Shown one piece after another: positions 6,176-46,225 of a DNA stretch of 64,000 nt (positions are counted from its first letter, which is position 1; each line of letters opens with the position of its first letter). The stretch comes from Argopecten irradians (lineage: Eukaryota > Mollusca > Bivalvia > Pectinida > Pectinidae): assembly GCF_041381155.1 (NCBI RefSeq), contig NC_091147.1, positions 32,692,909 to 32,756,908 of the forward strand, in the 5' to 3' direction. Below the pieces are notes generated by a model. That model was not told where the DNA came from. It did not search any database and worked only from the letters and a program-made list of their open reading frames with translations. The position numbers were made by a program, and so were the translations under genes.

Positions 6176-6361
6176 ATGATGTCGTTTGAGAGACGTGCAC
6201 CTAGACGGGCTTCCTTTGGGGGGAGAACCTCATCTTGTTTACGAGAACCACTTGTATTCCGTCGTCTGTCTACAAGATCGCCGATATCAGCTCATAAAAC
6301 CAGGGACACTCAAGATAAAACTAAAGGTGGAATCCTCTTCAGAGTGTCGAGTCCTCGTGGG
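6176..6361 (+). CDS. Possible first coding exon, unknown gene
   Basis: An ATG-started frame gives an Arg/Ser-rich peptide of about 62 residues (starts MMSFERRAPRRASFGG). It runs to CCTCGTGGG followed by GTGAGTCT, a good 5' splice site, exactly where the 44-bp minisatellite begins. A TATA-like run and an E-box lie 30-45 bp upstream. I recognise no family. It may be a real exon whose donor seeded the array, or chance. Reading on through the array is not credible. Confidence 0.2.
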
Positions 6362-7580
6362 GTGAGTCTCTCAAATAAATATTCAGTTGTGACAGTCCTC
6401 GTAGGGTGTGTCTCCCAAACAAATATTCAGTTGTGACAGTCCTCGTGGGGTGAGTCTCCCAAATAAATATTCAGTTGTGACAGTCCTCGTGGGATGTGTC
6501 TCCCAAACAAATATTCAGTTGTGACGGTCCTCGTGGGGTGAGTCTCCCAAATAAATATTCAGTTGTGACAGTCCTCGTAGGGTGTGTCTCCCAAATAAAT
6601 ATTCAGTTGTGACAGTCCTCGTGGGGTGAGTCTCCCAAACAAATATTCAGTTGTGACAGTCCTCGTGGGGTGTGTCTCCCAAATAGATATTCAGTTGTGA
6701 CAGTCTTCGTAGGGTGAGTCTCCCAAATAGATATTCCGTTGTGACAGTCTTCGTAGGGTGTGTCTCCCAAACAAATATTCAGTTGTGACAGTCCTCGGGG
6801 GGTGAGTCTCCCAAATAAATATTCAGTTGTGACAGTCCTCGTGGGGTGAGTCTCCCAAACAAATATTCAGTTGTGACAGTCCTCGTGGGGTGTGTCTCCC
6901 TAATAGATATTCCGTTGTGACAGTCCTCGTGGGATGTGTCCCCCAAACAAATATTCAGTTGTGACGGTCCTCGTGGGGTGAGTCACCCAAACAAATATTC
7001 AGTTGTGACAGTCCTCGTGGGGTGAGTCTCCCAAACAAATATTCAGTTGTGACAGTCCTCGTGGGGTGTGTCTCCCAAACAAATATTCAGTTGTGACAGT
7101 CCTCGTGGGGTGAGTCCCCCAAACAAATATTCAGTTGTGACAGTCCTCGTGGGGTGAGTCTCCCAAACAAATATTCAGTTGTGACAGTCCTCGTGGGGTG
7201 TGTCTCCCAAATAGATATTCAGTTGTGACAGTCTTCGTAGGGTGAGTCTCCCAAATAGATATTCCGTTGTGACATTCTTCGTAGGGTGTGTCTCCCAAAC
7301 AAATATTCAGTTGTGACAGTCCTCGGGGGGTGAGTCTCCCAAATAAATATTCAGTTGTGACAGTCCTCGTGGGGTGAGTCTCCCAAACAAATATTCAGTT
7401 GTGACAGTCCTCGGGGGGTGAGTCTCCCAAATAAATATTCAGTTGTGACAGTCCTCGTGGGGTGTGTCTCCCTAATAGATATTCCGTTGTGACAGTCTTC
7501 GTAGGGTGTGTCTCCCAAACAAATATTCAGTTGTGACAGTCCTCGGGGGGTGAGTCTCCCAAATAAATATTCAGTTGTGA
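6349..7580. repeat. 44-bp minisatellite with splice-donor-like core
   Basis: About 28 tandem units of 44 bp: CAGTCCTCGTGGGGTGAGTC, then CTCCCAAACAAATATTC, then AGTTGTGA. Units alternate between GGTGAGTC and GGTGTGTC forms. Variants with AATAGATATTC and TCTTCGTAGGG recur in the same order at about 6661 and 7189. These are 528 bp, or 12 units, apart, so part of the array is a higher-order duplication. Confidence 0.95.
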
Positions 7581-20736: not shown

Positions 20737-23175
20737 CTATGGGTTGGAATTATAGAAGGCCTGGGTCAATATGGGCCTTGAGTTAGAATTATAGAAAGCC
20801 TAGGTCTATATTGGCCTTGGGTTAGAATTATAGAAGGCATGAGTCTATATCGGCCTTTGGGTAGAGTATTAAAAGGCCTGGGTCTATATGGGTCTTGGGT
20901 TAGAATTATAGAAGGCCTGGGTCTATATGGGCCTTGGGTTAGAATTATAGAAGGCCTGGGTCTATATGGGCCATGGGTTGGAATTATAGAAGGCCTAGGT
21001 CTATATGGGCTATGGGTTAGAATTATTGAAGGCCTGGGTCTATATGGGCCTATGGTTGGAATTATAGAAGGCCTGGGTCTACATGGGCCTTGGGTTGGAA
21101 TTATAGAAGGCCTGGGTCTATATGGGCCTTGGGTTAGAATTATAGAAGTCCTGGGTCTATATGGGCCTTGGGTTAGAATTATAGAAGGCCTGGGTCTATA
21201 TGGGCCTTGGGTTAGAATTATAGAAGGCCTGGGTCTATATGGGCCTTGGGTTAGAATTATAGAAGGCCTGGGTCTATATGGGCCTTGGGTTAGAGTTATA
21301 GAAGGCCTGGGTCTACATGGGCCTTGGGTTAGAATTATAGAAGTCCTGAGTCTATATGGGCCTTGGGGTAGAATTATAGAAGGCCTGAGTCTATATGGGC
21401 CTTGGGTTTGAGTTATAGAAGGCCTCAGTCTATATGGGCCTTGGGTTTGAGTTATAGAAGGCCTGGGTCTATATGGGCCTTGGGTTAGAATTATAGAAGG
21501 CCTGAGTCTATATGGGCCTTGGGGTAGACTATTAGAAGGTCTGGGTCTGTATGGGCCTTGGGTTAGAGTTATAGAAGGCCTCAGTCTATATGGGCCTTGG
21601 GTTTGAGTTATAGAAGGCCTGGGTCTATATGGCCCTTTGGTTTGAGTTATAGAAGGCCTGGGTTTATATGGGCCTTTGGTTAGAATTTTAGAAGGCCTAG
21701 GTCTATATGGGTCTTGGGTTAGAATTATAGAAGGCCTGGGTCTATATGGGCCTTGGGTTAGAGTTATAGAAGGCCTGGGTCTATATGGGCCTTGGGTTAG
21801 AGTTATAGAAGGCCTGGGTCTATATGGGCCTTGGGTTAGAATTATAGAAGGCCTCGGTCTATATGGGCCTTGGGTTAGAGTTATAGAAGGCCTGGGTCAA
21901 TATGGGCCTAGGGTTAGAATTATAGAAGGCCTGGGTCTATATGGGCCTTGGGTTGGAATTATAGAAGGCCTGGGTCTATATGGGCCTTGGGTTAGAATTA
22001 TAGAAGGCCTGGGTCTATATGGGCCTTGGGTTAGAATTATAGAAGGCCTCGGTCTATATGGGCCTTGGGTTAGAGTTATAGAAGGCCTGGGTCCAATATG
22101 GGCCTAGGGTTAGAATTATAGAAGGCCTGGGTCTATATGGGCCTTGGGTTGGAATTATAGAAGGCCTGGGTCTATATGGGCCTTGGGTTAGAATTATAGA
22201 AGGCCTCAGTCTATATGGGCCTTGGGTTAGAATTATAGAAGGCCTGGGTCTATATGGGCCTTGGGTTAGAGATATAGAATGCCTCGGTCTATGTCGGCCT
22301 TGGGTTAGAAATATAGAAGGCCTCAGTCTATATGGGCCTTGGGTTAGAATTATAGAAGGCCTGGGTCTATATGGGCCTTGGGTTAGAATTATAGAAGGCT
22401 TGGGTCTATATGGGCCTTGGGTTAGAGTTATAGAAGGCCTGGGTCTATATGGGCTTTGGGTTAGAGTTATAGAATGCCTGGGTCTATATGGGCCTTGGGT
22501 TAGAGTTATAGAAGGCCTGGGTCTATATGGGCCTTGGGTTAAAGTTATAGAAGGCCTGGGTCTATATGGGCCTTGGGTTAGAAATAAAGAAGGCCTGGGT
22601 CTATATGGGCCTTTGGTTAGAATTATAGAATGCCTGGGTCTATATGGGTTTTGGGTTAGAAATATAGAAGGCCTGGGTCTATATGGGCCTTGGGTTAGAG
22701 TTATAGAAGGCCTGGGTCTATATGGGCCTTGGGTTAGAATTATAGAAGGCCTGGGTCTTTATGGTTCTTGGGGTAGACTATTAGAAGGTCTGGGTCTGTA
22801 TGGGCCTTGGGTTAGAGTTATAGAAGGCCTGGGTCAATATGGGCCTTGGGTTAGAATTATAGAAGGCCTGGGTCTATATGGGTCTTGGGTTAGAAATATA
22901 GAAGGCCTCAGTCTATATGGGCCTTGGGTAGAAGGCCTGGGTCTATATGGGCCTTGGGTTAGAATTATAGAAGGCCTGGGTCTATATGGGTCTTGGGTTA
23001 GAAATATAGAAGGCCTGGGTCTATATGGGCCTTGGGTTAGAATTATAGAAGGCCTGGGTCTATATGGGCCTTGGGTTAGAATTATAGAAGGCCTGGGTCA
23101 ATATGGGCCTTTGGTTGGAATTATAGAAAGCTGGGTCTATATGGTCCATGCGTTGGAATTATAGAAGGTCTGTGC
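20737..23175. repeat. 39-bp minisatellite with open 13-codon frame
   Basis: About 62 units of 39 bp: GGCCTGGGTCTATATGGGCC then TTGGGTTAGAATTATAGAA. Because 39 is a multiple of three, the + strand reads as a repeating GLGLYGPWVRIIE peptide over long stretches (20839-21411, 21676-22107, 22400-23164). Single-base indels break the frame several times and no gene context surrounds it, so I treat it as non-coding satellite DNA. Confidence 0.95.
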
Positions 23176-25810: not shown

Positions 25811-26310
25811 TCCTCAGGGTTTCCGATCACTTACGATCTCTACATCCCTGGATCATCCTCGCTACTCCAGGGTTTCCGATCACTTACGATCTCTACATCC
25901 CTGGATCATCCTCGCTACTCCAGGGGTTCCGATCACTTACGATCTCTACATCCCTGGATCATCCTCGATACTCCAGGGGTTCCGATCACTTACCATCTCT
26001 ACATCCTTGGACTATCTCATAGTAAATTAAAGGCAACAGAACAGGTAATTAGTCCTTTGATGCACATTGGTACACATCGTATAACGGTACACTGTGGTCG
26101 ACTGTGTGGCTTTGAAGTTGGGCGTCATCAAAGGATATCTTTGCTGGTTTGTGATTGGTCAAGTGTTTTCTGCTGAGCTGTCTCCGATTTTACTATGAGA
26201 TAATCCAGGGATGCAGAGATCGTAAGTGATTGGAACCCCTGGAGTAGCGAGGATGATCCAGGGATGTAGAGATCGTAAGTGATTGGAACCCCTGGAGTAT
26301 CATAAACCTC
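25811..26310. mobile_element. Fold-back structure with tandem repeats in its arms
   Basis: The left arm has nearly four direct 53-bp units (TCCGATCACTTACGATCTCT...TCCTCGCTACTCCA). The right arm (about 26196-26303) has two units of the same sequence inverted. The inner junctions are also inverted: GGACTATCTCATAGTAAA at about 26009 and TTTACTATGAGATAATCC at about 26190. Inside, TCCTTTGATG and CATCAAAGGA form a further small inverted pair. The 160-bp loop has no gene. Confidence 0.8.
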
Positions 26311-26679
26311 GGATTTCGAACGCCGACGCCGGAGTGATTCCATAAGCCTCCCTCTCTTCGAGAGGAAAGCTAAAAATTAGAATGAAATCAAATTGATTTA
26401 CAAATCAAAATATATAAATATAACAATTTTTATAAAAAACGATAAACTGCTAGGCAAAATCAAATTAGAATAAGATCTTCTATCTACGAGCGGACGGTCT
26501 ACGGAGAGCGACATTTAATTCAATGCTTTGTGTATCTTATCAGCAGTCAAATTTCTTGTGGCCAACTTTGATATAAATTATTTCAAGAATATTCAACTGA
26601 TCACAGAAAATACTTATAAATGTTTTGTTTGACAGTCTTCTTTATTAAAATTCCTACATAAAACAAAAGATTTCAAAAT

Positions 26680-27195
26680 AAAATAAAAGATCCAGAGGGA
26701 TCTTGGCGCCCACCAAATAATGATCTATGCCTGACAAGTGAAAGAGCTAGCTAGGATCTTTTCTCTGCTTTTCAAACTTTGGGTCCCAAAATGCAATATG
26801 CACAACTAGGGTGAAAGGGAACCTATAAATGAAATTTGAGACAGATCCCTTGAGTAATTTCTGAGTAATAGCGATAACAAACATCAACTGCCAAAATCCA
26901 AGATGGCTGCCTGGCGGCCATATTGTTTTTCCGATCACCCTCAAAATCAGCATGACACTCCGAGTGCCCTAGGAAAACCTACATATGAAATTTGAGACAG
27001 ATCCCTTGAGTACTTTCTGAGAAATAGCGGTAACAAACATCAACTACCAAAATCCAAGATGGCTGCCTGGCGGCCATATTGTTTTTTCTGATCAGTCTGA
27101 AAATCAGCATGACACTCCTAAGGACCTAGGGAACCATGCATGTAAAATTTGAGAAATATCAGTGCAGTACTTCTCGAGCAATAGCGGTAACAAGC
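26680..27195. repeat. Interspersed repeat with two CAAGATGGCTGCC units
   Basis: Two tandem stretches share 'tgaaatttgagacagatccc', 'atccaagatggctgcctggc' and 'ggccatattgttttt' (about 26827-26935 and 26985-27090), with a third degenerate unit after that. It begins at 'gatccagagggatcttggcg', probably one terminus. The small frame at 26747-26953 follows from the repeat. Confidence 0.65.
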
Positions 27196-27732
27196 ATTGT
27201 TTACGGATAGACACCAGACCATGGACGAAAGGTGATTTGAATAGAAATGAGTTTCTGTCTTACACTCTTGACTCTTGTGTTGCACAATTATGTAGGTAAA
27301 ACCATGCACACAAGAGGGCAGACTTTTATAATGCCTTTACCTCAGATCTGTTTTCAACAATCATTTAAAAACGTTATTTTATGTACACAGAAAGAAACTC
27401 TGATAAGTTTACTTTATAACTCTCAGGTCTATAAGCCTTAGATAGTAAGCCCAATTTGTATTATCGTTAACAGAGGTTATGTAAGAGGAGTCACCAGTGT
27501 GTATACAGTCAGGATAGACCTAGATGGAACTGTGTATTCCACCAATCAGAAGGCAGTCTTCCCAGTACTGGAAAGGAATATTATTCAATGAATAGGAAAT
27601 TTATGAATGAAATGGTTCAAGAGGTCACCACTAGATGTCATTGTAGGGCAAGTCCTACACATATAGTATACCAGATAGCAATACCTTAAATTGGGATATT
27701 TTGGCATCCGGAAATTTTGTATCAAAAAAGGT
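27196..27732. other. Non-coding spacer, nothing recognised
   Basis: AT-rich DNA between two interspersed repeats. Short frames show no coding bias. Confidence 0.4.
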
Positions 27733-28243
27733 AGAACGAATATACGTACCCCGCCTACTATACCTTTCGGCCGGGTACGAATTGGTCCCTATGTGACCTA
27801 GTGGAGCAGTGCCTCTGAAAATCACTCGGGCATAGTTTTCTATACTTTTTTTGTAGGTTTCCAATTATTTTATGCGTATACATGCATTTACATATTATTT
27901 TTGTCCAAAACAAACATAACTACCATTCTTAATATCTACCGTATCGCTCACAAGACGTCAAATTCATAATTTGTAGACTTGCCGTATAAATTCTCTTCAG
28001 AAAGACCTTCATATGTATATGTAAAAAAGATAATGTCTCGCTGTGAATTTGATATTTTCTACAATTCAGTTTTATTGCTAATAGGTAAGTGAATCAAGTA
28101 AGATAAAATGCATCCAAACGTTTTAATAATGGTTTGCAAAACCATTACTTTGCTCCATTGGCAGTCATAGGTACCAATTGTAGCTATAAAGACGACACTA
28201 TTTTCTATCTAAAAGTCTCTTGAGCTACAATATTGCAGCTACA
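27733..28243 (+). repeat. Family R2 interspersed repeat, copy 2
   Basis: The best preserved copy of the family, from GAACGAATATACGTACC to ATTGCAGCTAC. On its - strand the first 130 bp keep an open frame (27655-27864) whose core ...IGTNSYPAERYSR also appears in copy 4, so the ancestral element may have carried a short coding segment. Confidence 0.8.
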
Positions 28244-28356
28244 AAATAGGGTGGTTAAATTTTGGTGCATTTAAATTTGATTTTCCCTATTCCGTGTCAA
28301 TTTGGGCTCATTATGATTCATATATAAAAATTTTGAAGATTTTTTTTTGTCTACAG

Positions 28357-28512
28357 ACATGGATCCCACCACGATGAAAATCGGACGCGATTAGTTTTGA
28401 AGCCTTATCGATACAAAGACGACCCTTTGAAATATTTGTCTTCAATGGAAGTGATTAATAGTCACACATCTAATGATATATCTAATGATGTTTGCACAGA
28501 AGACTCACACAG
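28357..28512 (+). CDS. Candidate coding exon, unknown gene
   Basis: A strong acceptor (T8GTCTACAG) and a strong donor (CACAG|GTAACT) bracket 156 nt. One frame is open throughout (CAT from 28358), giving HGSHHDENRTRLVLKPYRY... over about 51 residues with phase 2 at both ends. I recognise no family. A chance open frame of this size is possible, but both splice signals fit well. No neighbouring exon of matching phase was identified. Confidence 0.35.
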
Positions 28513-28738
28513 GTAACTTTTTTTCTGGTTAACAGAACATACATTAAATACGTGTTTATGTAATGTGATGGAGTGATTTATCCGAAAGAACGTGTTTACA
28601 TGCCTACTAAATGACATGTAGAGGTATTGATCGTACAAATTTGTAGCCAAATTTTGGAGTTAAATTTTAGTGCTTTCATGTCAAACGCCAAATAAGCCAA
28701 AATATGACCAAATACAAGCGCTACGTGTGTTTTGTTAA

Positions 28739-28776
28739 ACAAGAGGCCCAGAGGGCCTGTATCGCTCACCTGTTTT
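28739..28776. repeat. Short repeat end with AGGCCCAGAGGGCCT palindrome
   Basis: AACAAGAGGCCCAGAGGGCC followed by TGTATCGCTCACCTG resembles the outer end of R1 (AAGAGGCCCATGGGCCTTA) with a different core. Probably a truncated member of a related family. Confidence 0.6.
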
Positions 28777-29170
28777 TTTTTAGTAATTATCATAAAGACT
28801 CTGACAATTAGAAAAAATAGCAAAATTGACTCCCAAAGTTTAATTTTGAATCACAACCATACAATGATGCTATTGATACCATACAAATATGCTATCCAAT
28901 ACATAGGTTCAGAGACAAAATAATTTATATGAAAATAGTAGCCTAATTGAACTTTTTGACCCCACTTTTATTGCCGTATAACGTTCATTCTCCACTAATT
29001 TGCATGTTTTCAGAAATGAAAACATAAAATATGAAAATTGAAAACAAAGGTCTTATGTATTGTCATTTGTTTGGCAAATATCTCTACTTTTTAAATCCAA
29101 AAGGGCTGGCTCCTATCTTTACTCAAAGAAAAGTTATAATTGTTACAGTCAACCATCATATTTTGGTAAA
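28777..29170. other. AT-rich DNA, nothing recognised
   Basis: No gene, repeat or structure seen. Confidence 0.4.
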
Positions 29171-30995
29171 GAACAGATACGTGACTTTGTTAAAATGAAC
29201 TAAATTGAGGTTTGTCATTAGAAATGCCACAAAATATACACTTTAACTGAATGTTTGCTTTGGTTTTGGACTTTTCTTTCCATTCAAAGCCATTTGTCCG
29301 TCTCGAAAGCAACTTGTCTTTATCAATTGCAGTTATGAAAAGTTCATTTGTGAATATTGGTTTGTATGATTCATAAGTGTGTTCGAATAGTTTCATATAA
29401 AAATAGTACCAAAGTATTTTGTTTCTATATTTTTCCTTATTATCAAACTGTATCTTTATCTGCATCAGTACATGTCAGTAATTTTGTATTTGTATAAATC
29501 ACAAATTACTGTATATGACATTAAAATCCTGCTTTAAGCAGTAACGTATATGTTACAATATACTTAATATATGACTGTAGAAATCTGACAGGATTATTAT
29601 GTTTTTCTGTTTTATAAATTCGTCAAAATGCATCAAAGAAAACGTACTTTTCAGCGATTTCACTTCTCTGCAATACTTTAGATGATTTTTGCGTAAATTA
29701 GCAGCGATAACGTATCTGTTTTCTTGGTATATGTCTTTATGAAGTATTAGAAAAAAAACGAATTCAATAACAAGAATCTGCTTCAAAACTTGTAGTCAAA
29801 ACTACAACATCGAAATTATCAAACGATAGATCAAAACTATTGAAAGCGGCGTCGATGAAGAGATGATTTATGTTTGTACCATATTGGTAACGTATCTGTC
29901 TACATCGATTCCCATTGACTGCGGATGGTTTCAGCGTTCTTGTCATTAAATGGGAAAAAACGACCTGCACGGCTGACAGGTAGATGTGATAACTCAGGAT
30001 AAACAGTTCGTCTGATATTTTTGGCCAACGAAACCTCACTTGTCCTTTGTTGATGTGTTTTGACATGAAAAAAAGGAATAATTCATTCTCATTGTGTCCT
30101 CGCCTTCCTTCACCTGAGAAACGTATCAGTCTCCGTCATACTTGATTGTCACAAACAACCCTAAACTTACATTTTCTTACCATATCTAGTCTGAAACAAA
30201 TTGCTACAAATGAAACCAAGTTCACTCAAATTAAGGTTTACGTACAAAAGTACAGATCCGTTTACCAAATATGACAGTGTACGTTACCAAAATAAACAGA
30301 TACGTTATTTCATGTTTATATATCACATTACCGTATCATTAGTATAACAAACATTTTAACAATATCTGGCTATAGAATGTATTTGAATTAGTCGATGTAA
30401 CACTATTTTTATTAGTTTTACACTAAACATTAGAGTTAACGGTACATCTTTCATCAAACAGATACGTAATCTTTTATACCAGATACGTTACTATTTTGAT
30501 ATGTGATTTATACATTTAACAATTAATTATATACCTAATAGCTTAATCAATACAGCTAAACTAGTGTTAGAAATCACGTGATTATTATCAGAAATGTATA
30601 TATATATGTTACTATGTACAGGTATATACTAGAGGAAAGTAAAGGTTTTTCTTATTTCGAGTTTCCCAACACTGGCAACACAACGAATCTTCCCGCTTGT
30701 AAACTATTGACAAACTCTCGGACACTTGCCACGTGGTTAAGCTAATTTCGAATGTTTTATGACAAGCGTGAGAATTTCTGTCGATATGGGTATTTTTCCA
30801 TAACGTATCTGTCGGTAACGTACTGACCGACACTAATCCCTCTCATCATTTAAATGACAACCGTGTGACTTGTCGACCAAACCACAAACATTGTAACACT
30901 TAGTATTATATACTTTTCAAACTGTGATGTGAATTTATCTCTGTGGGAAAGTGGCATCTTAGGTAATCAAGTACATAGTAGTAACGTATCTGTTG
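29171..30995. other. Dispersed cluster of the 9-mer CAGATACGT / ACGTATCTG
   Basis: Exact matches start at 29174, 30297, 30459 and 30480 (as CAGATACGT) and at 29710, 29890, 30803 and 30984 (as ACGTATCTG). Close variants lie at about 29541, 30119, 30251, 30274, 30328 and 30815. Flanking bases extend several to GTAACGTATCTGT. Spacing is irregular, orientation is mixed and the DNA between sites is not repeated, so this is not a tandem or ordinary interspersed repeat. Short - strand frames (29764-30066, 30612-30833) have no recognised family. Confidence 0.7.
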
Positions 30996-31084
30996 ATGTC
31001 GTTGCGTAACATGTATATTTTCAAGATTAGATCGCACCTGTCTATGGCATGTGAAACGTTGCAATATTCATTAAATTTATATTT

Positions 31085-31465
31085 TTGTTCTAAAAAATAA
31101 ATATTTGTTCTTTAAAAAAATAAATATTTGTTCAATAATACAAAATATACATTCAAAAAATAAATATATATTCATAAAGAATAAATATTTATTCAAAAAT
31201 TGAAATATATGTTCATAAAAAAAATATATTTATTCAAAAAAAATAAATATCTGTTCATAAAAAATAAATATTTATTCAAAAAATTAAATATATGTTCATA
31301 AAAATAAATATATGTTCATAAAAAAATAAATATATGGTCAAAAAAATAAATACATGTTCATAAAAAGTAAATATATGGTCAAGAAAAATAAAAATATTTG
31401 TTCAATCTGTATTTAGGATTATTGAATATATATTTATACATTCAATGTGCCAAAATAAATATATG
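31085..31465. repeat. About 20-bp AT-rich minisatellite
   Basis: Roughly 17 degenerate units of AAAAAATAAATATATGTTCAT, with variants ATTTGTTC, ATGGTC and ATTTATTC. Confidence 0.9.
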
Positions 31466-31472
31466 TTCATAA

Positions 31473-31634
31473 ATGTTGCATTGTGGGACAGTATGTAATG
31501 ACACCAAGGGCTTTCGTTACGGCGTATTTGATTGGATAAATGAAAACGAAAGTAGTCTTGATCATGGAAGTGTTTGTTTTCAAATGAAGGCTGCAGACGA
31601 TTTGACGATGGAAGTGGAAATGCTATTTGTTTTG
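31473..31634 (+). CDS. Candidate first exon, unknown gene
   Basis: An ATG directly after the AT-rich minisatellite opens 54 codons (MLHCGTVCNDTKGFRYGVFD...) ending at TTTTG|GTGAGT, a consensus donor in phase 0. The composition is coding-like (acidic, mixed), but I recognise no domain and see no partner exon. Without splicing the frame runs on to 31745. It lies about 3 kb after the other unknown exon on the same strand; the two are not phase-linked directly. Confidence 0.3.
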
Positions 31635-31874
31635 GTGAGTAAACTAAGTAATACCTACGTGTACATCTCAATTAAATGTAACTGTGTGACAGGGCACATC
31701 GTTTGCAATTGGCGTCCGACCAGAAACATATATAACGTTACGTAACCTCCCGTCAAATAGTTCAATAAACCACAACATGTCATGTAAGACCAAGACCGTT
31801 TTCGTTTATTCGGAGCAACCAGTTCGACCGTTTGTTATTGTCATTATCTAAAATGTAAATCCTGACGGACCTGC

Positions 31875-32215
31875 AGTTTTTTTGATGACCTATAGTCATC
31901 ATGCACCGTCCGTCGGCGTCCGCCGTGCGTAAAACTATTCATTCAAACGACTTCTTCTCAATAACCGTAAGGCCTAAAGTACTCATATTTGGCCTGTAGC
32001 ATGCTGGGATGAAGAACTACCAAAGTTGTGAAAATGAATGACCTTGACCTACTTTCAAGGTCAAAGGAGTCAAATAGGCTAAAATCTTTGAACACATCTT
32101 CTTCTCAATAACCGTAAGGCCCAGAGTACTCATATTTCTAAAATGAAGTATGCAAAATGTGCAGGAGGACCCATTTTTCTTTCAAATGTGCATTTTTAGA
32201 ACATTTCAGTCGGCT
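31875..32215. repeat. Interspersed repeat starting GATGACTATAGTCATC-like
   Basis: Begins with the palindromic GATGACCTATAGTCATC and a CGTCCGTCGGCGTCCGCCGT run, then 'cttcttctcaataaccgtaa' twice (about 31951 and 32099). Typical of a dispersed family with short GC-rich ends. No coding capacity. Confidence 0.6.
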
Positions 32216-33124
32216 ACATGTAAGTTAGATAAAATTTGGCCTAATATCTCAAGGTGTGTATGTATGTTAGTCTGTAAATATAAATGAGCATGATTCTTAT
32301 CCCTATCCAAAAACTACAATCACTAGGAATATGAAATCCAAATAACTAAACTTGTTCTGAAACATTTTCTATCAAAAATAAAATTGGAGTTATCCCCCTT
32401 TAATCAGTACTTATTAATATTATTATCACTATACTGTAATTAATTCAATTTATTTGTATATTTAAATATATGTATAAATTAATTGCAGAATGAATTCATG
32501 TTTATACTTTAAAATAAGATCTGGAGAGGACTTAAATAGGCGTAGCCTGATGTCCGATCCTATTGATGTACATAATATCAATAAAATATTGTTGAAATTG
32601 GAAATTGAAAATTGGCTAAAATGGGGGGGGGGGCAAAAAGACATGTTTGGCCCTGTCCTGGGTAACGGGGGTGGGGAGGCGATTACCCCCCTGCCCCTCT
32701 CTTCCTACGTCCCTGCCAAGGACGTATACTTATAAATCCTTGTTATGACGGATAGAGGTCGGTGTCTAAAAAAGCGGTCTTTTTTCGGCGATTCTGGCCA
32801 ATGTCATAGCAAGTACCGTACAGTACAGAAGTCCCCCATTATACAGATTGGGGACACTCCCGTATATATACGCAGAATAGTCCTGCATTTGAGTAATAGT
32901 CCTGTATTTGAGGGAGTGTCCCAACCTGTTTATACCGCCTATTTCCACCCTGCTGATGTACAGCTAACTCCACAGATTCACTTTACAGCTAGTATACAAG
33001 TAATTGATCATAGAGTTAAAACATTTTTACTGAAAAAGCGTGCTTTTGCAGTATTGCTACGGCCCGGATGACCCACTAATTTAAATGCGATTGACCTCTC
33101 ATTTGCATGCGATTTTTTCTTTTT
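32216..33124. other. Mixed non-coding DNA
   Basis: A G-run at about 32622-32634 and an imperfect inverted pair, GGGGACACTCCC (about 32851) and GGGAGTGTCCC (about 32911). The 108-residue frame at 32745-33071 spans this inverted pair and has no family resemblance, so I do not call it a gene. Confidence 0.4.
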
Positions 33125-33625
33125 TCCTCTTTCTAGAACAAATCGTAAGTGAATCCCCACCATATAAGGATGCAACCATTGCATCATGTAAGTATCTAAT
33201 TGTAAGTGCTATCTCATGCTTAGTCACAGAAGAAGTCGTTTATATGGAAATAGCTAAATTGACCACTTTTGACCCCACTCCTCAGCCCCCCCCCCCCCCC
33301 GGGGGTCATCCCCATCATTTGTTCAATTATGAATCCCCACACTATAAGGATGCTACCATCGTATTATGGGTGCTATCCCATGCTTGGTTTCAGAGAAGAA
33401 GTCGTTTATATGGAAATAGCCAAATTGACCCCTTTTGGCCCAGCCCCTCAGGCCCCTGGGAGGTCAGCCCCATCATTTGTACAATTTTCAGTAAGTAGCC
33501 CATAAGGATGCTTCCAGTCAAATTTTGTTGAAATCCGACCAGCGGTTATGGAGAAGAAGTCGATTGTTGGACGACGACGCCGGACGCTGCGGTATCCCAT
33601 AAGCTCACCTCGGTCAGCAAAAAAT
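33125..33625. repeat. Interspersed repeat with two GAATCCCCAC units
   Basis: GAATCCCCACCATATAAGGA (33152) and GAATCCCCACACTATAAGGA (33331) start two units that share 'agaagtcgtttatatggaaa'. A run of 15 C followed by 5 G lies at 33286-33305. The end (GACGACGCCGGACGCTGCGG then CCCATAAGC) resembles the end near 26320-26348, so the families are related. Frames through it are artefacts. Confidence 0.6.
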
Positions 33626-33679
33626 GTCATATTTTATCACCAGTTTACACAGTCCTGATATAATATAACACAAAGACAA

Positions 33680-33705
33680 CATCCACATTGACAATATTTT
33701 ATTGC
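33680..33705 (-). terminator. Candidate distal poly(A) site for ARGLU1
   Basis: On the - strand, GATGCAATAAAATATTG is followed within 20 bases by a GT-rich stretch (ATGTGGATGTTGTC TTTGTG). It is about 3.5 kb beyond the ARGLU1 stop, so use by ARGLU1 would need a long 3' UTR that includes the 40-bp minisatellite. Nearer AATAAA-like sites may be used instead. Confidence 0.3.
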
Positions 33706-34030
33706 ATCTGAAGTGCAAATATATAACTAATTTCAAAAGCAGAAAAAATGATAAAAAAAAACAGCATAATTTTTGTCAATAGAATATTCAATAGAAAAAA
33801 AAGTCAGCTGTATATCTGATGATCACCTCAAATTCTATTGAAATTTTATTGCAAACACTGATTTCTTCTAATATCTACATTCAGCAAATCAATAGATAAA
33901 TGGAATTCTTTTTCTTAAATTCTTCAATTTAAGTATGTACATTTTTTTAAAGTAGCTATCCAAATAAAAATTAAGTAAACTAATGGCAGATTAAGGTGCT
34001 GCTGTAACGTCTTACCAGGAATCTCCATGT

Positions 34031-34562
34031 TTATGTAGAGATAATGCTACATCAACAAGCAGAACATCCTCTATGTAGAGATAATGCTACATCGACAAGC
34101 AGAATTTCCTCCATGTAGAGATAATGCTACATCGACAAGCAGAATTTCCTCTATGTAGAGAAAATGCTACATCGACAAGCAGAACTTCTTCTATGAAGAG
34201 ATAATGCTACATCGACAAGCAGAATTTCCTCTATGTAGAGATAATGCTACATCGACAAGCAGAATTTCCTCTATGTAGAGATAATGCTACATCAACCAGC
34301 AGAACTTCCTCTATGTAGAGAGTATAATGCTACATCGACAAGCAGAATTTCCTCTATGTATAGATAATGCTACATCGACAAGCAGAACTTCCTCTATGTA
34401 GAGATAATGCTACATCGACAAGCAGAATTTCCTCTATGTAGAGATAATGCTACATCGACAAGCAGAATTTCCTCTATGTAGAGATAATGCTACATCAACA
34501 AGCAGAACATCCTCTATGTAGAGATAATGCTACATCGACAAGCAGAACCACCTCTATGTAGA
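34031..34562. repeat. 40-bp minisatellite
   Basis: About 13 units of TCTATGTAGAGATAATGCTA then CATCGACAAGCAGAATTTCC. Each unit contains GTAGAGATAATGCTAC, which can pair with itself (GTAG...CTAC). One unit has an AGT insertion, which shifts the period once. Confidence 0.95.
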
Positions 34563-36137
34563 CTGGTGTTACCTACTTGATTTACTTACCATAACTTTGA
34601 CCAAAACTTTACAATGCCTCACTAGTTGCCACTTACACAATTATTTTTCCATTTTATACGTACAAGCTATCCTTTCTTGTGAAAAGTATTCCACATTTGT
34701 ATATTACTGAGTTATCTGCCCCTGCGGGTAGGAACCGATTGCTACCTCATGTTTTTTAGGGTAATGTCAGATCTTCCGGAGAAAACAAAATTTGTTTGAT
34801 ACCTACACATATAGATGCATAACTCTACTAATATCAAAAGACTGAATATTGTCACAATCATTAATTTGAGAAAACTAGGTTATTTTCCGATGAGAAATAA
34901 AAGTACATGTTTTCAATAACAAATAAAACAAGTACATGTTTTCAAGAGAAGATAACTCTTCTAAAAAGGAAGACTTGAAACAATATCAATTTATGTCACC
35001 ATTAACTTACCTGGATCTAACCTAACACATCTTACAGAATGACCCAAATATATCTGAAAAAATAACTTTTTAAACAGTAACTGCGTTAAAAATCCAAATT
35101 TACCAACAATCAGTATCACCATACACTCAGCTACTTACCTTCTCCCTATATCACAGGACTAACATTTAACGGGACAATTCAGTTAAACAAATTAAAATTT
35201 TGCCAAAAAATTAAAAATTTTGATCAGAATTTATACCTACAGAGGACTCCACGTAATCGAATAATGGTAATTTGAATATTTCGGATATTTGTATAAAATT
35301 CTGCGGTCCCGATTTTTGCCTTCTTTATCATTGTTTCTCATATTAAATACATGTCCATTTTTACCCTGTTTTATTGAAAAATGAAGTTTCCATAAATTAT
35401 CCCTTCAAAAGTTTAATCCCGGCATTTCATTCATCAGTTTCATTGATTCATTATTTTCTATGTATAAAATAATCCATTCTGACAATTCACAATCAAACTT
35501 AAGGAATATGACATTTTTTCAAAAATTTGCAATGAACACCTCTAACAAAATCCAATTCCTTGGCACAGGTACAATTCATCATTATGTACAACACTATTTT
35601 TTCATGTTTTTACAATAACTGAAGCACAAATCATACACAAGACAATCAAAATACTAGCTCAATGTACTATAAAAATTGGAAGCCTTTATCTTCTGACTTT
35701 TTATTTGGACCCTTCAACGCATGCATGAAAATTTCCTGTATGGAATGAAGGATGTGCTGCTATAAGCTAGCACAATGACACGCTTGAGTAGCGTGTAGCA
35801 GTTTACAGCTAGCATATCTCCCACTCCGTACAGGAAATGTTCATCCCAATCCTGAAGAAATCAAACAAAATAGGTTTCACAGCACTTTGAGCTAATTACT
35901 AATCCAACATCAACGGATGCCCTATCTCAGCGAGTGATAAGAAAGTTACAAACCGTAAAACAAGACAATCTATAGTCATACATCTCGTGTCTCAGACCCG
36001 CTGTATTTGTGGCTTGATGTTTTGATTGTGTGTTTGCGAGCATTACATCAGAATTTTCAGTGAAAACACAGCGATTTTCGCTCAAAACGTGTAATGATAT
36101 CACAATAGATACCTTGCAAAGCCAGAATAAGATGAAA
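34563..36137. other. AT-rich DNA downstream of ARGLU1
   Basis: No gene seen. A loose inverted pair flanks 35700-35850: CATGAAAATTTCCTGTATGG with its partner CCGTACAGGAAATGTTCAT, and GCTAGCACAATGACACGC nearby. This may be a degraded short element. It could include ARGLU1 3' UTR. Confidence 0.35.
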
Positions 36138-37209: not shown

Positions 37210-37368
37210 TCACTTTCCCAGAGAGAATGACACTTTAGGACGCGCATTCTTTTTGTTGAGTATCACCTCCTGTTCGCGTTTCTTACGCCGTTTATCATCA
37301 TCCTCCATTCTTTGTTTTTCCTCTAACATACGTCTCTGTTCTTCTACAAGTTTCAACTGCTCTTCCGC
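37210..37368 (-). CDS. ARGLU1: ARGLU1 exon 5: C-terminus
   Basis: Residues 200-251 and the TGA stop. [20 protein letters not shown] is followed by a basic stretch and the conserved tail [10 protein letters not shown]. The acceptor is CTGTTTGTTCAG. A few vertebrate tail residues after SFSL are replaced by GK. Confidence 0.95.
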   Translation of the reverse strand, partial: AEEQLKLVEEQRRMLEEKQRMEDDDKRRKKREQEVILNKKNARPKVSFSLGK

Positions 37369-40300
37369 CTGAACAAACAGAATCATCAACATTCTCATTT
37401 TACTTTTTTTAGACTTCTTATTCAAAATCATATATTGGTGCAGCCTGGTATTTTTGTATTAAAGATATTCAAACTTTTTGATGGTCATTGATTTTAAATT
37501 AAAATATGTGTGTTAGCTATAGATCCTGTTACAAATTGATTGTGCAATTTGATTTTGAATTTTAAATAAAAAACAAAATATTGTTAAAAGTCTATATGAC
37601 CAAAAACAAACTGGCCAAATACATCTACCTAAGATTGATTTAAATTTATGGGGAAAAAAAAAACAAGAGGCCCATGGGCCTTAACGGTCACCTGTGTTAG
37701 AATATATAACGAAACAAATAATGAAACAAATTAAAGACATATAAACACTATATGCTGGGCCTCGAAGTTAGTCAGTGATTTATAAATTTGACTTTTTAGA
37801 CTATGAAGAGTATTTGCTTCCATCAAACCTGTGAATTTAGAAGTATTTTTTGAAATCTTAATCATTTTGACCCTGTTTGGTCCTGCCCCTCTGGTCCCCC
37901 ATGGGGTCATCAAGGACTGATATGGATGTTAAAATGCTATATCTTAGGCTAATAATTCTAATCAAGTTTGACTACTTTCCTATGAAAATTGGGCAAATAA
38001 TGTTCACAAATATGTTTTTCCTATATAAACTATGGTAAACTTGACCCCTCCCCTGGGGATAACGTGAGACCCCAAGGTCAAATAATTCACAATTTTTATA
38101 AAACACCTTAGGACCTTTCCATCTATAATTATTTGATTCTACTATTTCCAGAATTTTATAAGATTTTTGAAGTTTTGGCCTATTTTGACCCTTTTTTTAG
38201 CCCTGCCCCTCTACCCCCAGAGGGTCGGCCAGGACCAATAAGGATATGATATTAAAATGCTATCTCAGGCTAATAATTCTTACCAAGTTTGACTCATTTC
38301 CAATGAAAATTGAGCAAAAAATGCTCATTAATGTGTTTTTCCTATATAAACTATAGTAAACTTGACCCCCTCCCCAGGGGGAAATGTGAGACCCCAGGGT
38401 CATATAATTTACAAATTTTATAAAACACACTTTAAGACCTTTCTATCTATAAAGTGTATTTGATTCTACCATTTCCAGAATTTTAGAAGAATATTTTTGA
38501 AGTTTTAGCCTATTTGACCTTTTTTGGCCCTGCCCCTCTACCCCCAGGGGGTCGGCCTGGACCATGGATATGATGTTAAAATGCTAACTCAGGCTAATAA
38601 TTCTAACCAAGTTTGACTCGTTTCCAATGAAAATTTAGCAAAAAATGCTCATAAATGTGTTTTTCCCTATATAAACTATAGTAAATTTGACCCCCTCCCA
38701 AGGGGGAAACGTGAGACCCCAGGGTCATATAATTCACATTTTTGTAAAGGACCTTAAGACCTTTCTATCTGTGAAAAGTATTTCATTCTACTATTTCCAG
38801 AATTTCAAAAGAATATTTTTGCAGTTTTAGCCTATTTGACCCCTTTTGACCCCGTCCCTAAAGGCCCCTGGGGGTCAGTCATGGAAAATCTGTTGATAGG
38901 ATTAAATGGTCATCTCATACTGATAATTCTGACAACATTTGACTCATTTCCTATTACAAATGACCAAATAATGCTCAAAAATTGTGTTTTCCCAATATAA
39001 ACTATAGTAAACTTAACCTCCTCCCCAGGCGGGATACTAGAGACCCCAGGGTCATATAATTCACATTTTTTGTTAAGTGCCTTAAGACGTTTCTATCTAT
39101 GAAGATTATTTGATTCTACCACATATGTGAGTAGAGAAGAAGCTTTTTGAAATTTTACTCAATTTTACCCCTTTTGGCCCCTCCCGCACCCCCCTGGGGG
39201 ATGGGGACCATATCATTCACAATTTTGATTGGCCTTATGCCTTAGAAGGTTTGTGCAAAATTTCATTGAAGTTTGGAGAAGAAGTCAAAAATGTAAATTG
39301 TTTACAGACATACGACGCATGACGACGGACAAAAGGCGATTAGAATAGGTCACTTGACTTCGTCTCAGGTGACCTAAAAGAAAGTATAAATAAAATCGGA
39401 TTAATTATAAATTAGTGGTCAAAAAAAAAAAAACCATGACCACCATTTACATGTTTACACTTTAACAAATCAATTTCACAAGTACATACCAGTTTTTTCT
39501 GTGCTTCCTCTATCTTGCGGTTGTTTTCTTCCATTATTTGTTCTAATGCCTCTCTTTTCTTTCTTTCCTCATCCTACAAAAAAGGTTGGCATGTGAACAT
39601 ATGGATGCTAGATATTTGCCTATCTCTAAGATTCCATGGATGCCCCTTCATAGCCCCAGAAGCACTTCCCTAATGTCAACCTACTAATACTGATCCAGCA
39701 AAAAGCAACCTGATTAAATATACAACACAACAATGTCAAAGATATATTATTAAAGTAGATTGATTACAAAATTTCATTCATTATTTTAAAATGTTTCTAC
39801 ATTGTAAATGTATAGATGTACAGAATGCAGATGTTTCAAACTAGACATTTCAAATCATTACAATATTAACATGTTAGCCTTTAAAAGAGTGTGCTCTATG
39901 GTCTGTTAACATTATATAAGATATACATCATTGATATGGTTGACCGACAAACAATCCAGTACACATGTAACAATGAGGGAACACTGCATATCTGTTCCTT
40001 CCTTGTCAATAACAAAAGTCATTACATAATTAGGTATAATCAAATTTCACCATCATCACAGAAAAGCATTTGATGATAATATCCCTGATGTCAATGAAAG
40101 ACCAAAATTAAGAAAAAACAAAAGTGCATTAAAATTTGTAATGGTATATATAGTTAGATGGCACGGTTTTACCTGTGGGTAGTTAACGTACATACCAAAA
40201 CCAGACAGCAATGCTACTTCTCTCCGTCTGTCGAGCTACAAATCTTCACATGAGTAAGCAATCGTGGAGGGATGTAAACTCAATAGCCCTCCTTGCCTCC

Positions 40301-43300: not shown

Positions 43301-46102
43301 TTTGATAGATTAAATATCATTTGTCAGCGGTGGAGCATCTTTAAAATGAAAAAGGATATTTGGGGAAAGCTTCAACGCAAACCCTGCTAGCTATTTTTTG
43401 TTCAGTAATAACTGAAAACCATCAGGCTTGTTGAATAAAGCAAATAGATCTAGATGTGTTTCAAAATTTGTCATCATTGAACAAACACAATCGGAAATTA
43501 AATTCACAAAAGATTCCCCAGTGAACCGAAATGTGTATCACGACACTTTTTTTTCATACTGAACTGTATATAATATCGGTATAATGTAGTACATATGTGT
43601 TTAAATGGCTTGCATTTTACTGTAAAAGCAAACACGAATTGCAAATCGAAGTGTGTGATATATGCTATAATTTGTTCTTGTTGCGGTGATTTTTACATCG
43701 GCCAAACTTGCAATGAACTTAGAACACGTATGACTGTTCATAGGCAACAAACAAGAACGGATTCTCTACGTAATTTGAATGTCAATAAGCATATACATGG
43801 TTGTGCAGGTGATAAATTTAATGTTATACCTTTATATCAATTACATTCTTCAGACACTGTTTTGTTGGAAAATAAAGAGAATCAGCTTATAAAAATATTG
43901 AAACCAACTCTCAATAGGCCATAATAGAAAATGGCGCAACTTCATATTATTGTTATGTAAACGTGTGTACCTTGTGACGTCACGCTATTTGTGACGTCAT
44001 TAATTTGTTCTTTGAAAAATAAACATATTCCTGAAGAGCCATCATGAAATGATGAATGTACAAGAGAAAAGTCATTGACTTTTATTTTTTATATAATATC
44101 GGTATATATATACTGATAATAATGCACACCACAGCTAGTGTATATGCTCTATACACCAATCTTAGCCTTTACAGGTAACTGTGTAGCCATGTACTGAAGC
44201 ATAATGATCAGCAGGATCGGACTACTTAGCCCAACTAAAATACCCACAGTGGTGGTGGTATAAGGGTCTCATATGTTATCTAGGGCAAAGACTTTGAAAA
44301 AGGAGTGTACTGTGTAGCAGGATTGGACTGGGTTGATCATGTCATTGGTGTCAAGGTAGCTCAATGGTAGAGCATTCGGTTAGTGTTTGAAGGTCCAAGG
44401 TAAGAATCCCGGTCTGGCCACCACATTTTCTCCCCTCCAGATACACATGCATCTTAATTTAATTATTTTAGCTGCCATATATTCCAGTGATTGAATGCAA
44501 GATCTCCAAATACTTGCCGACTGTACAGTGCATGCTTTACTGATTGAAATACCTTGTGACCGATTACTGACCTAGTATGCTACATTACTGTATACAAACT
44601 ACGTATATATAAAATCACAGAATCACATCGCAACGATTCGCTTATCACAAGCGGAATATGACAAACCTTTAATAAAACATTTTTGCAAATTACACTACGG
44701 TTAACTAAAATATTTCAAAAACGAGCGAGGTTCATGTCAAACTACAGAACGAATATACGTACCGGGCCTACTATACCTTTTGGCCGGGTACGAATTGATC
44801 CCTACATGTCGTAGTGGAACACTGCCTGTAGCGTTTCCCACAGCCCTGATTAGCATGGCGCTGCGCCGTTTTTACCTGACGCCATCCCCCTTTAACCTTG
44901 CCCTGCCCTCCGAAAATCACTCTGGCAGTTATCTATACTTTTTTGTAGGTTTCCAATTATTTTATGCGTATACATGCATTTAGTTTTTACATATTATTTA
45001 GTCCAAAACAAGCATAACTACCATTCTTACTACCGCTCCTAAAATTCACAATCTGTCATATAAACTCCTTTCAGAAAGAATTTCATATGTATTATGTAAA
45101 AAAATAATGCCTTGATGAGAATTGGATATTGTATGTGGTTCAGTTGTATTGCCAAGTAGGTAAGCAATATCAAACAAGTACGATGAAAATGCAAACAAAC
45201 CGTTACTAATGGTTTGCATAATCATAATGTTGCTCCATAAGCAGTAATAGGCACCCAGAACTTGAAGACCTAACAGAACTTGAAGACCTAACAGAACTTG
45301 AAGACCTAACAGAACTTGAAGACCTAACAGAACTTGAAGACCTAACAGAACTTGAAGACCTAACAGAACTTGAAGACCTAACAGAACTTGAAGACCTAAC
45401 AGAACTTGAAGACCTAAACCCCACTCCCTAAAATTTCTTTCATATTTTTATCTTATAACTGTCACTAAAAGAAAATAATAAAAAAAAAATAACATGCACC
45501 TTCACGATCACTGTAAATAACTTCACTCTTTTTTTTCCCACAATCACGCCTCTGCCAATCCGCACAATATAATCATCGGCATCGATGGATTTGTGTTTCT
45601 TATAAGAAGAAGATTGTAGCTCTCAAGACGACACCAATTTTTGTCTTTCAAGTCTTTTGAGATACAATATTGCAGCTAATATTAAACTAGTCTGAATTTA
45701 CTAGTGATATTTACATTGCACAAAGCGAATACTCGCCAGTGTTAACATCAGGACAATTTGGATTAGTCACTCTTGGTGGAGTGGAGGGAGTCTAGCGATT
45801 GCGACCCCCCCCCTCCCCCCGTGATTTTTTTTATAAACATTAATCTACACCCGAAGACATCACAGCCATACAATTACATATGCAGCATGTTTTGATTTTC
45901 ATGTGCATAACATAATGTGAGACCTTTCATGTCGACTTCGCTTCCTGTCTCTCGACCTTGAGCGGTTCCGACTGTGGCGACTTGATCTCGATTCCTTTTG
46001 CTTGGTTCGCGAACCTGAACGAGAACGTGTCCTCCTCTTTTTATGCTTCCCCTTGTGCCTCTGCCTACTGGAAGATCTGCTACGACTACGAGAACGACCC
46101 AT
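37210..46102 (-). CDS. ARGLU1: Arginine and glutamate-rich protein 1, five exons
   Basis: Joining (- strand) 46102-45924, 42693-42586, 42095-41870, 39573-39490 and 37368-37210 gives 251 residues with all phases matching (human: 273). Residues 1-59 are an Arg/Ser-rich domain beginning MGRSRSRS. Residues 61-75 are a Ser-then-Asp patch, a likely CK2 target. From about 78 on, a long charged coiled coil includes [20 protein letters not shown] and [10 protein letters not shown], near-identical to vertebrate ARGLU1, and the protein ends [10 protein letters not shown]. Vertebrate ARGLU1 is a nuclear splicing modulator and a Mediator-linked transcription cofactor; the role here is inferred. Compared with the vertebrate protein, the segment around 'RIDIFGRT' between the RS domain and the coiled coil is absent from this model. 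It may be a missed exon in the 3.2-kb first intron, or truly lost. Confidence 0.93.
37662..39375 (-). repeat. Family R1 interspersed repeat, copy 2 (longest)
   Basis: Fills most of ARGLU1 intron 4. It has the R1 ends (AACAAGAGGCCCATGGGCC and CGTCTCAGGTGACCT) and about five internal monomers of 320-340 bp. Each has 'tataaactat(a/g)gtaaactt', a CCCC(A/T)GGGG run, 'aagacctttctatctat' and 'tgactcatttcc'. Copy 1 has only two to three monomers, so the monomer number varies between copies. It reads in the gene's direction. Confidence 0.8.
39490..39573 (-). CDS. ARGLU1: ARGLU1 exon 4
   Basis: Twenty-eight codons, residues 172-199 ([20 protein letters not shown] then IEEAQKKL), phase 0 at both ends. 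The acceptor is CCTTTTTTGTAG; the donor is CTG|GTATGT. It is short and symmetric, so skipping it would also keep the frame. Confidence 0.95.
39574..41869 (-). other. ARGLU1 intron 3, unusually repeat-poor
   Basis: Apart from the candidate cassette exon, this 2.3-kb intron has no recognised mobile element, in contrast to the neighbouring introns. The + strand frame at 40403-40648 has no homology. Low repeat content fits an intron with conserved regulatory sequence, but conservation cannot be judged from one sequence. Confidence 0.4.
40173..40235 (-). CDS. ARGLU1: Candidate 63-nt cassette exon of ARGLU1
   Basis: Between exons 3 and 4, an acceptor (GAAGATTTGTAG) and donor (CCACAG|GTAAAA) enclose exactly 21 in-frame codons, phase 0 on both sides and no stop: [21 protein letters not shown] minus the last residue fits after ...RRNKE. 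LDRRRE continues the charged helix; the Gly/Tyr/Pro part would interrupt it. Vertebrate ARGLU1 is known for regulated splicing around an ultraconserved intronic element, which makes an alternative exon plausible. The polypyrimidine tract is weak, as expected for an optional exon. Confidence 0.45.
41870..42095 (-). CDS. ARGLU1: ARGLU1 exon 3: core coiled coil
   Basis: Residues 96-171, the family hallmark ([20 protein letters not shown]... [16 protein letters not shown]). The acceptor is TCTAATTACAG; the donor is AAGGAG|GTACAC (phase 0). Confidence 0.97.
42586..42693 (-). CDS. ARGLU1: ARGLU1 exon 2: Ser/Asp patch and coiled-coil start
   Basis: Residues 60-95 plus two bases: KRST, six Ser, three Asp, then [18 protein letters not shown]. 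The acceptor is CTCTTCCAG and the donor TTACA|GTAAGA (phase 2). This is the least conserved exon, but its end aligns with the vertebrate EEEEKKAEFERQR segment. Confidence 0.9.
42980..43344 (+). mobile_element. TTAA-flanked MITE, family A, copy 3
   Basis: In ARGLU1 intron 1. The ends are TTAAAGATGCTTCACCGCC and GCGGTGGAGCATCTTTAA, and the internal sequence follows copy 2 (19970-20333) throughout. 365 bp. Confidence 0.85.
43595..44080 (+). pseudogene. Penelope-like element: GIY-YIG endonuclease and 3' end
   Basis: The 109-residue frame at 43595-43924 is the C-terminal endonuclease of a Penelope-like retroelement. It has [20 protein letters not shown] (the degenerate GIY...YIG core with Cys residues), then the catalytic-type Arg in [12 protein letters not shown], a His pair in NVNKHIHGC, and the Glu in [15 protein letters not shown]. 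The reverse-transcriptase part is missing, so the copy is 5'-truncated. A roughly 150-bp 3' tail follows, with two TGACGTCA-like sites and CCTGAAGAGCCATCATGA. It lies in ARGLU1 intron 1, antisense to the gene. Confidence 0.8.
44345..44610 (+). mobile_element. tRNA-derived SINE
   Basis: The head is tRNA-like: A box TAGCTCAATGGTAGAGC, an anticodon-arm pair TTCGG / TTGAA with loop TTAGTGT, B box GGTAAGAATCC and an end TGGCCACCA. The acceptor stem and B box have mismatches, so it is not a working tRNA. A non-tRNA body follows to about 44600. Pol III transcription from + is possible. In ARGLU1 intron 1. Confidence 0.65.
44751..45680 (+). repeat. Family R2 interspersed repeat, copy 3, interrupted
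   Basis: Same start (GAACGAATATACGTACC) and same end (hairpin TTGTAGCTCT...GAGATACAATATTGCAGC) as copy 2. It has about 80 extra bases at about 44825-44910 and, near its 3' end, the 18-bp tandem array plus about 190 bp of other DNA. In ARGLU1 intron 1. Confidence 0.75.
45257..45417. repeat. 18-bp tandem repeat, nine near-identical units
   Basis: AGAACTTGAAGACCTAAC repeated nine times without visible change, inside R2 copy 3. On the - strand it reads SSSSVR repeats (45206-45424), a by-product and not a gene. Confidence 0.95.
45924..46102 (-). CDS. ARGLU1: ARGLU1 exon 1: RS domain
   Basis: Residues 1-59 plus two bases. The start ATG is chosen because MGRSRSRS is the conserved family N-terminus. 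The frame is open for nine more codons upstream (MLCMHLSKK), but these are not conserved. The donor is GAAAG|GTCTCA, a weak site that joins in phase 2 to give Arg60. Confidence 0.9.
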
Positions 46103-46225
46103 TTTCTTTGAAAGGTGCATACAAAGCACTCGGTAAACGTTAACAAAACGATTTTCCTAGCATTTGCGAATCCAAAATGGCTTCCATCGACATCGAGTTG
46201 CTTTATTTCCGGAAATGGAAACGTC
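46103..46225 (-). promoter_or_regulatory. Probable ARGLU1 promoter, TATA-less
   Basis: Upstream of the ARGLU1 start codon lie a YY1-like site (AAAATGGCTTCC on +, 46174-46185) and a palindromic ETS-like site (ATTTCCGGAAAT, 46205-46216). No TATA box is seen at a fitting distance. ETS plus YY1 without TATA is typical of broadly expressed RNA-processing genes. The exact start site is unknown. Confidence 0.45.

Follow-up and report, generated by a model that had tools for sequence, protein, structure and literature searches.

Clustering of a short motif in the window

The 64-kb window of Argopecten irradians, by which we mean the whole stretch of DNA analysed, raises the question of what kind of sequence carries eight exact copies of the 9-mer CAGATACGT, four on the plus and four on the minus strand, all within positions 29174-30992. 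In dinucleotide shuffles, 64 kb contained 0.35 exact copies on average and never more than 2, and in k-mer scans with the tandem arrays masked this was the top clustered 9-mer after (AT)n, poly-A and poly-C. With at most one mismatch the whole window holds 14 copies versus a shuffle mean of 10.3, a total that is not itself in excess; the unusual feature is the clustering and not the number. One-mismatch copies are located at 29544, 30121 and 30253 within the cluster and at 37330, 56815 and 58156 outside it, and a fourth near copy (30275-30287), which contains an indel, was spotted by eye via site 1293 of the family consensus described below.

The first-pass annotation had reported eight exact copies, four per orientation, and had noticed none elsewhere in the window; our count agrees on both points. 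Its near copies are also present, although they number three or four instead of about six. The 9-mer is real, yet the full motif is longer (AACAGATACGTTAC), and the irregular spacing that had been described holds, though merged sites in the family consensus fit a regular period.

A dispersed element with terminal inverted repeats

The extended word CAGATACGTTAC occurs 330 times in the 845.8-Mb source genome (both strands), versus 70 occurrences of the reversed control. Among 100 places listed, 81 fell in 21 groups and 19 were single, the latter being close to the number predicted by the control; scaled to the 330 places, the genome may contain approximately 70 such groups. Twenty of the 21 groups were fetched, and all 20 loci match the window over the cluster and have the surrounding DNA in common as well, the best piece per locus displaying 91-98% identity to the window over a length of up to 2.1 kb. 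The recurrence of similar clusters with shared flanks, for which the first-pass annotation had proposed a genome-wide count, is thereby found. The cluster is part of a dispersed element that is not limited to the window locus.

The family consensus, built from 15 rows (14 loci and the window copy), is 2,581 bp long; all copies except that of the window were collected via the motif itself, and motif-free copies would be missed. It begins with CGTTCATTCTCCACTAA and finishes in the exact reverse complement, giving terminal inverted repeats of 17 bp that are identical at 17/17 bases, past which the two ends diverge and share a weak gapped similarity (64% over 98 columns). Both ends are kept in 15 of the 20 fetched loci, and seven of these 15 two-ended copies have all 17 terminal bases exact at both ends. 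The 45 bases beyond each end are different between loci, except for L011 and L016, which have both sides in common.

An exact 4-bp target-site duplication is present on either side of 11 of the 15 two-ended copies. L011 and L016 have common flanks and count as one insertion, which leaves 14 events, ten of them with an exact duplication. The duplicated sequences are AT-rich and not fixed:

L009: ATAT
L011 and L016 (one event): ATAA
L014: TTGA
L017: TGAA
L020: TTTC
L022: AAAT
L024: TTAA
L026: TATA
L027: TTAC
L028: ATAT

An exact duplication is absent from the other four two-ended copies: that of L018 is off by one base, a lenient reading of the mutated end of L021 yields a plausible TTTA duplication, and neither L012 nor L023 agrees with a 4-bp duplication. 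When searched against viral contigs, CGTTCATTCTCCACTAA had one exact match in each of three contigs, which we took as chance, and its matches in the literature were, by title, on other subjects.

The family displays three features of a DNA transposon with terminal inverted repeats, namely dispersed copies with the same ends, the inverted repeats themselves and a duplication of fixed length. Almost certainly, the cluster is the interior of a DNA transposon of the non-autonomous, cut-and-paste kind, present here as a truncated copy. The first of the three readings offered by the first-pass annotation, that of subterminal transposase-binding sites in a DNA transposon, is sustained as to the transposon by the 20 of 20 loci, the inverted repeats and the 4-bp duplications, and has to be given up as to "subterminal", since the sites are internal.

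The copy in the window

The window copy and its immediate surroundings comprise the following features:

28808..28981, plus strand: flanking dispersed repeat, the insertion target, with about 93% identity to L016 and L028
28978..28981, plus strand: ATAA, presumed left copy of the 4-bp duplication, its partner lost with the right end
28982..28998, plus strand: left terminal inverted repeat CGTTCATTCTCCACTAA, exact; the matching right terminus is outside the truncated copy
28982..31045, plus strand: truncated transposon copy, predicted to be non-autonomous, with the right 526 bp missing
31086..31406, no strand assigned: AT-rich tandem array with a unit of about 21 bp (consensus TGTTCAATAAAAATAAATATA), just past the truncation and outside the element

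Aligned with the 15-row consensus over 2,067 columns (window 28980-31045), the copy is 98.1% identical, with a divergence by substitutions of 1.4%. In L016 and L028 the flanking repeat continues unbroken past the insertion point (GCCGTCTAAGG), while the window has GCCGTATAA followed by the terminus; therefore, the element presumably jumped into this repeat and later lost its right end. At the position of the ATAA, uninterrupted versions of the flanking repeat have CTAA. The AT-rich array that follows the truncation may be linked to the loss of the right end. After its insertion and this loss, the window copy is presumably inert. A search of window positions 26000-36000 against Rfam returned 0 matches.

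The motif within the element

In the consensus, 13 motif sites are present in both orientations, at positions 195, 562, 728, 907, 1137, 1272, 1293, 1313, 1475, 1496, 1813, 1993 and 2183. The outermost ones are about 190 bp from the left and about 390 bp from the right end of the consensus, and the order is one plus, four minus, five plus and three minus sites (four orientation blocks, p=0.044). The matrix derived from them gave the motif AACAGATACGTTAC, and the information at the sites amounts to about 21 bits in about 13 columns. All 13 sites score at least 17 bits and the next best position in the consensus 7.1 bits, a gap that is partly built in by training the matrix on the same 13 sites; Markov sequences contained on average 0.33 sites of at least 9 bits. 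Where same-strand neighbours are 20-21 bp apart, the gap places them on one face of the helix. When the sites were merged into 10 positions, their placement agreed with a period of about 181 bp (p=0.014 by simulation, post hoc).

Scanning the window with this matrix at 9 bits or more gave 11 sites within the element; outside it, the scan yielded three weak sites of 9.6-10.6 bits. The sites of the window copy, including one recognised by eye, are:

29174..29185, plus strand: motif site 1, 22.2 bits
29541..29552, minus strand: motif site 2, 20.4 bits, one mismatch
29707..29718, minus strand: motif site 3, 23.1 bits
29887..29898, minus strand: motif site 4, 25.6 bits
30118..30129, minus strand: motif site 5, 17.0 bits, two mismatches to the 12-mer
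30253..30264, plus strand: motif site 6, decayed to 9.8 bits, versus 20.3 bits for the consensus site
30275..30287, plus strand: motif site 7, by eye, broken by a one-base insertion; consensus site 1293
30297..30308, plus strand: motif site 8, 21.7 bits
30459..30470, plus strand: motif site 9, 17.2 bits
30480..30491, plus strand: motif site 10, 22.2 bits, 21 bp after site 9
30800..30811, minus strand: motif site 11, 21.4 bits
30981..30992, minus strand: motif site 12, 24.6 bits

The family's 13th motif site (consensus position 2183) is gone from the window copy and was apparently lost with the right end. In the literature search for the motif 12-mers, neither was among the matches listed, which by title dealt with other subjects.

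Several of the spacings between sites are 162-190 bp or about double, and such values would also be left by a decayed tandem repeat, the third reading of the first-pass annotation, with the 12-mer as its sole recognisable remnant. The consensus does match itself weakly in a few places, best over 49 bp at 78% (E=0.001, on opposite strands, around 1293-1313 and 1993) and, outside the motif, over 52 bp at 71% (E=0.02). However, when 190-bp units are taken from each site, the similarity between them is limited to their physical overlaps and a single 22-bp stretch (86%); the motif is found in both orientations; and the information drops from at least 1 bit to the background (0.20 bit, sd 0.14) within about two columns of the motif. 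We consider this origin very improbable. The motif looks like a scattered protein-binding site in one element rather than a worn tandem array.

Change of the motif after insertion

The motif appeared to change more slowly than the rest of the element (31/1847 versus 691/27825, simulated p=0.006), a result that is biased because the copies were gathered by exact 12-mers. The difference was gone when the comparison was confined to the nine sites whose consensus form departs from the search word and which are unable to bias the sampling (27/1283 versus 691/27825 elsewhere; Fisher p=0.46). Both tests were performed on 12 of the 15 rows (L012, L016 and L020 dropped). In L001, the one older copy examined, 19 of 93 aligned motif columns differ versus 12.5% of 1357 columns elsewhere; leaving out sites 562 and 728, which are in a badly aligned part, 8 of 72 motif columns differ, and five motif sites fall in gaps. 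Copies seem to decay neutrally once inserted, as is expected of an inert transposon copy, and a host enhancer or replication role is therefore unsupported. The uniform strength of the 13 ancestral sites suggests that they mattered while the element was moving.

Such a role had been the second reading of the first-pass annotation. The extreme local clustering and the position between a PP2C-like and an ARGLU-like gene would agree with an enhancer or replication element of the host at the window locus, kept by selection. With the same cluster and flanks in 20 of 20 fetched loci, and unbiased motif positions that are no better conserved than their surroundings (p=0.46, a test of the family and not of this one copy), we give it hardly any credence. 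The apparent regulatory cluster is now explained, and without a search for copies arrays of this kind would easily be taken for enhancers.

Coding content and proposed role of the motif

Open reading frames of the consensus reach at most 94 codons; in the window copy, one frame has 123 codons. Pfam gave 0 families for five frames of the element, four of them from the window and one from L009. On the fetched copies, the element is without a recognisable gene, and it is taken as non-autonomous because its frames are short (at most 94 codons in the consensus) and the five tested frames lacked a Pfam match. Two of the fetched loci, L018 and L022, contain larger inserts at the same consensus position, and a comparison of the two inserts gave no match at E 1e-3. 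Over the element, frames in these two loci reach 101 codons at most; the inserts are taken as later insertions.

An autonomous partner located elsewhere would produce a protein, either a transposase or an accessory protein, that binds the sites both singly and in the helically phased neighbours 20-21 bp apart; the bound protein could then join the two ends for transposition, or control the element. Binding of such a transposon-encoded protein is the likeliest role of the motif, at about even odds. The internal sites, which are not near the ends as in textbook subterminal arrays, argue against a transposase-binding role, and the missing conservation of the motif after insertion fits an inert copy and adds no direct support for binding. 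Identity and binding role taken as a whole, with the weight on identity, are quite probable.

The same transposon could instead carry putative sites for a transcription factor or zinc-finger protein of the host, serving germline expression, nuclear positioning or nucleosome phasing. The sites cover most of the element rather than its ends, same-strand neighbours are 20-21 bp apart, the orientations form four blocks (p=0.044) and the period of about 181 bp is near the nucleosome repeat; that periodicity, however, was examined after the fact on 10 merged positions, and the element has no recognisable gene to express. We regard binding by a host factor as rather unlikely, but it is the main rival. 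More doubtful still is a body-wide ladder of putative binding sites that would not serve the recognition of ends, with roughly one rung for each nucleosome repeat and neighbours in helical phase; here a gene-less transposon would be coated with a single protein, encoded by itself or by the host, that controls its chromatin or its pairing. Given the similarity of the copies and the strength of the sites, one 14-mer could be enough to fish out the putative binding protein.

Comparison with known transposon groups

Motif arrays of this sort are best known from plants, where they are subterminal, and CACTA elements have duplications of 2-3 bp. In the portion of PMC2613891 at hand, CACTA (En/Spm) elements are described with CACTA termini and 3-bp duplications; the En/Spm protein TNPA binds short repeated motifs, and defective gene-less copies need it in trans and move if their cis sites are kept. 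TNPA of maize is the model for the binding proposed here. The element of the window is likewise a DNA transposon with inverted repeats that holds a short motif many times over. Unlike En/Spm as described there, its ends are CGTTC... and not CACTA, its duplications have 4 bp instead of 3 bp, and its motif, read here from sequence alone, occupies the interior, with 13 copies on both strands that start about 190 bp from the left and 390 bp from the right end, whereas the En/Spm repeats are confined near the ends. Sites that run through the interior are unusual against the subterminal arrays best known from plants (PMC2613891, in part). With its termini and duplications, the element does not belong to CACTA.

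Sola elements, according to the available part of PMC10741241, encode a DDD transposase and have 4-bp duplications; their termini vary greatly, and their inverted repeats measure 11-1124 bp. The element shares with them the 4-bp length of its duplications, which are without fixed sequence, and a short inverted repeat; internal motif arrays, in contrast, do not figure in the excerpted Sola description (PMC10741241). Membership of Sola is possible on these duplication and end features. Academ elements have duplications of 3-4 bp and an Academ transposase; the 4-bp duplications fall within this range, and membership of Academ is possible too. So is a MuDR or PHIS-type origin, the duplication ranges of both including 4 bp in the excerpts of PMC10045372.

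KolobokP is present in almost all bivalve genomes analysed in PMC9587614, whose accessible passages describe short inverted repeats (11-18 bp) within a long repeat, duplications of 3-5 bp around solo copies, 5'-RR...YY-3' termini for Kolobok and KolobokP and TTAA duplications for ordinary Kolobok. The element resembles KolobokP in its short inverted repeats and in a duplication length within 3-5 bp. It differs in its CG...CG termini, and a repeat-internal-repeat structure was not seen in the fetched loci, in which the only multimer, L025, is a tandem duplication that includes a piece of a different transposon. On account of the CG...CG termini and the varied duplications, Kolobok and KolobokP were rejected. 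PiggyBac (TTAA duplication and CC...GG termini in the passages seen of PMC10045372 and PMC9587614) was likewise rejected, since TTAA was found in one of the 11 exact duplications (L024) and the termini are CG...CG, as was Ginger on the basis of its 5'-TG...CA-3' termini (PMC10741241, in part).

DNA elements, including non-autonomous ones, are overrepresented in bivalves according to an excerpt of PMC10294476, and such a family is therefore expected there. The matches listed from the literature on bivalve transposons and on subterminal repeats held no description of it; Repbase or Dfam may already contain the family.

Neighbouring elements at other loci

Reading frames beside the L025 copies (ALSGCDTTS..., GEDTDLLVF...), which look Academ-like, were considered as an autonomous partner and rejected. 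They belong to another element, of which L032 contains a better gene copy, and are assigned to a neighbour rather than to a partner because the L032 gene is located between different inverted repeats, ACCTCAAACAAATTGCAAAAGAAAC. The XPG-like frame beside the L025 copies also belongs to a different element with other ends. The L025 frames matched no Pfam family, and one of them had no match in the phage records.

The L032 element (362-6142; G000:C7:10751361-10757141) is 5.78 kb long, with perfect 25-bp inverted repeats, and has a 754-aa open frame containing GEDTDLLVLL and ALSGCDTTS. Pfam gave nothing significant for this frame (DUF6589 only, E=0.085), whose product presumably resembles XPG-bearing transposases. 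A 195-aa piece of a related gene had 73 matches in the genome, its own locus included. At L029, L025 and L030 (G000:C3:19679000-19694000) tandem units of about 4.6 kb were found, and in three of them a truncated copy of the element is fused to part of the other transposon; these units represent a local tandem duplication.

Other features of the window

An exon of a protein phosphatase 2C gene is located on the plus strand at 14420-14800 (PF00481, E=5.9e-30); upstream of it, the frame 10134-10325 is PP2C-like by eye, without a Pfam match. On the minus strand, an exon at 42000-42112 matches ARGLU (PF15346, E=1.4e-6), and the frames 37210-37458 and 45899-46156, the latter without a Pfam match, resemble by eye the remainder of this ARGLU-like gene. 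Within the span of this gene, a plus-strand frame at 43574-43924 encodes a GIY-YIG nuclease domain (PF01541, E=2.3e-7), which we take as a possible Penelope-type relic. A reverse-transcriptase fragment, LINE-like by eye, is present on the plus strand at 57941-58282 (PF00078, E=8.2e-6, below the gathering score). Two long tandem arrays with 39-bp and 44-bp units occupy 20740-23172 and 6350-7580, respectively, and a very large one, composed of about 311 copies of the 21-bp unit TATAGTCAATACAAGTACACC, extends from 49951 to 56477.
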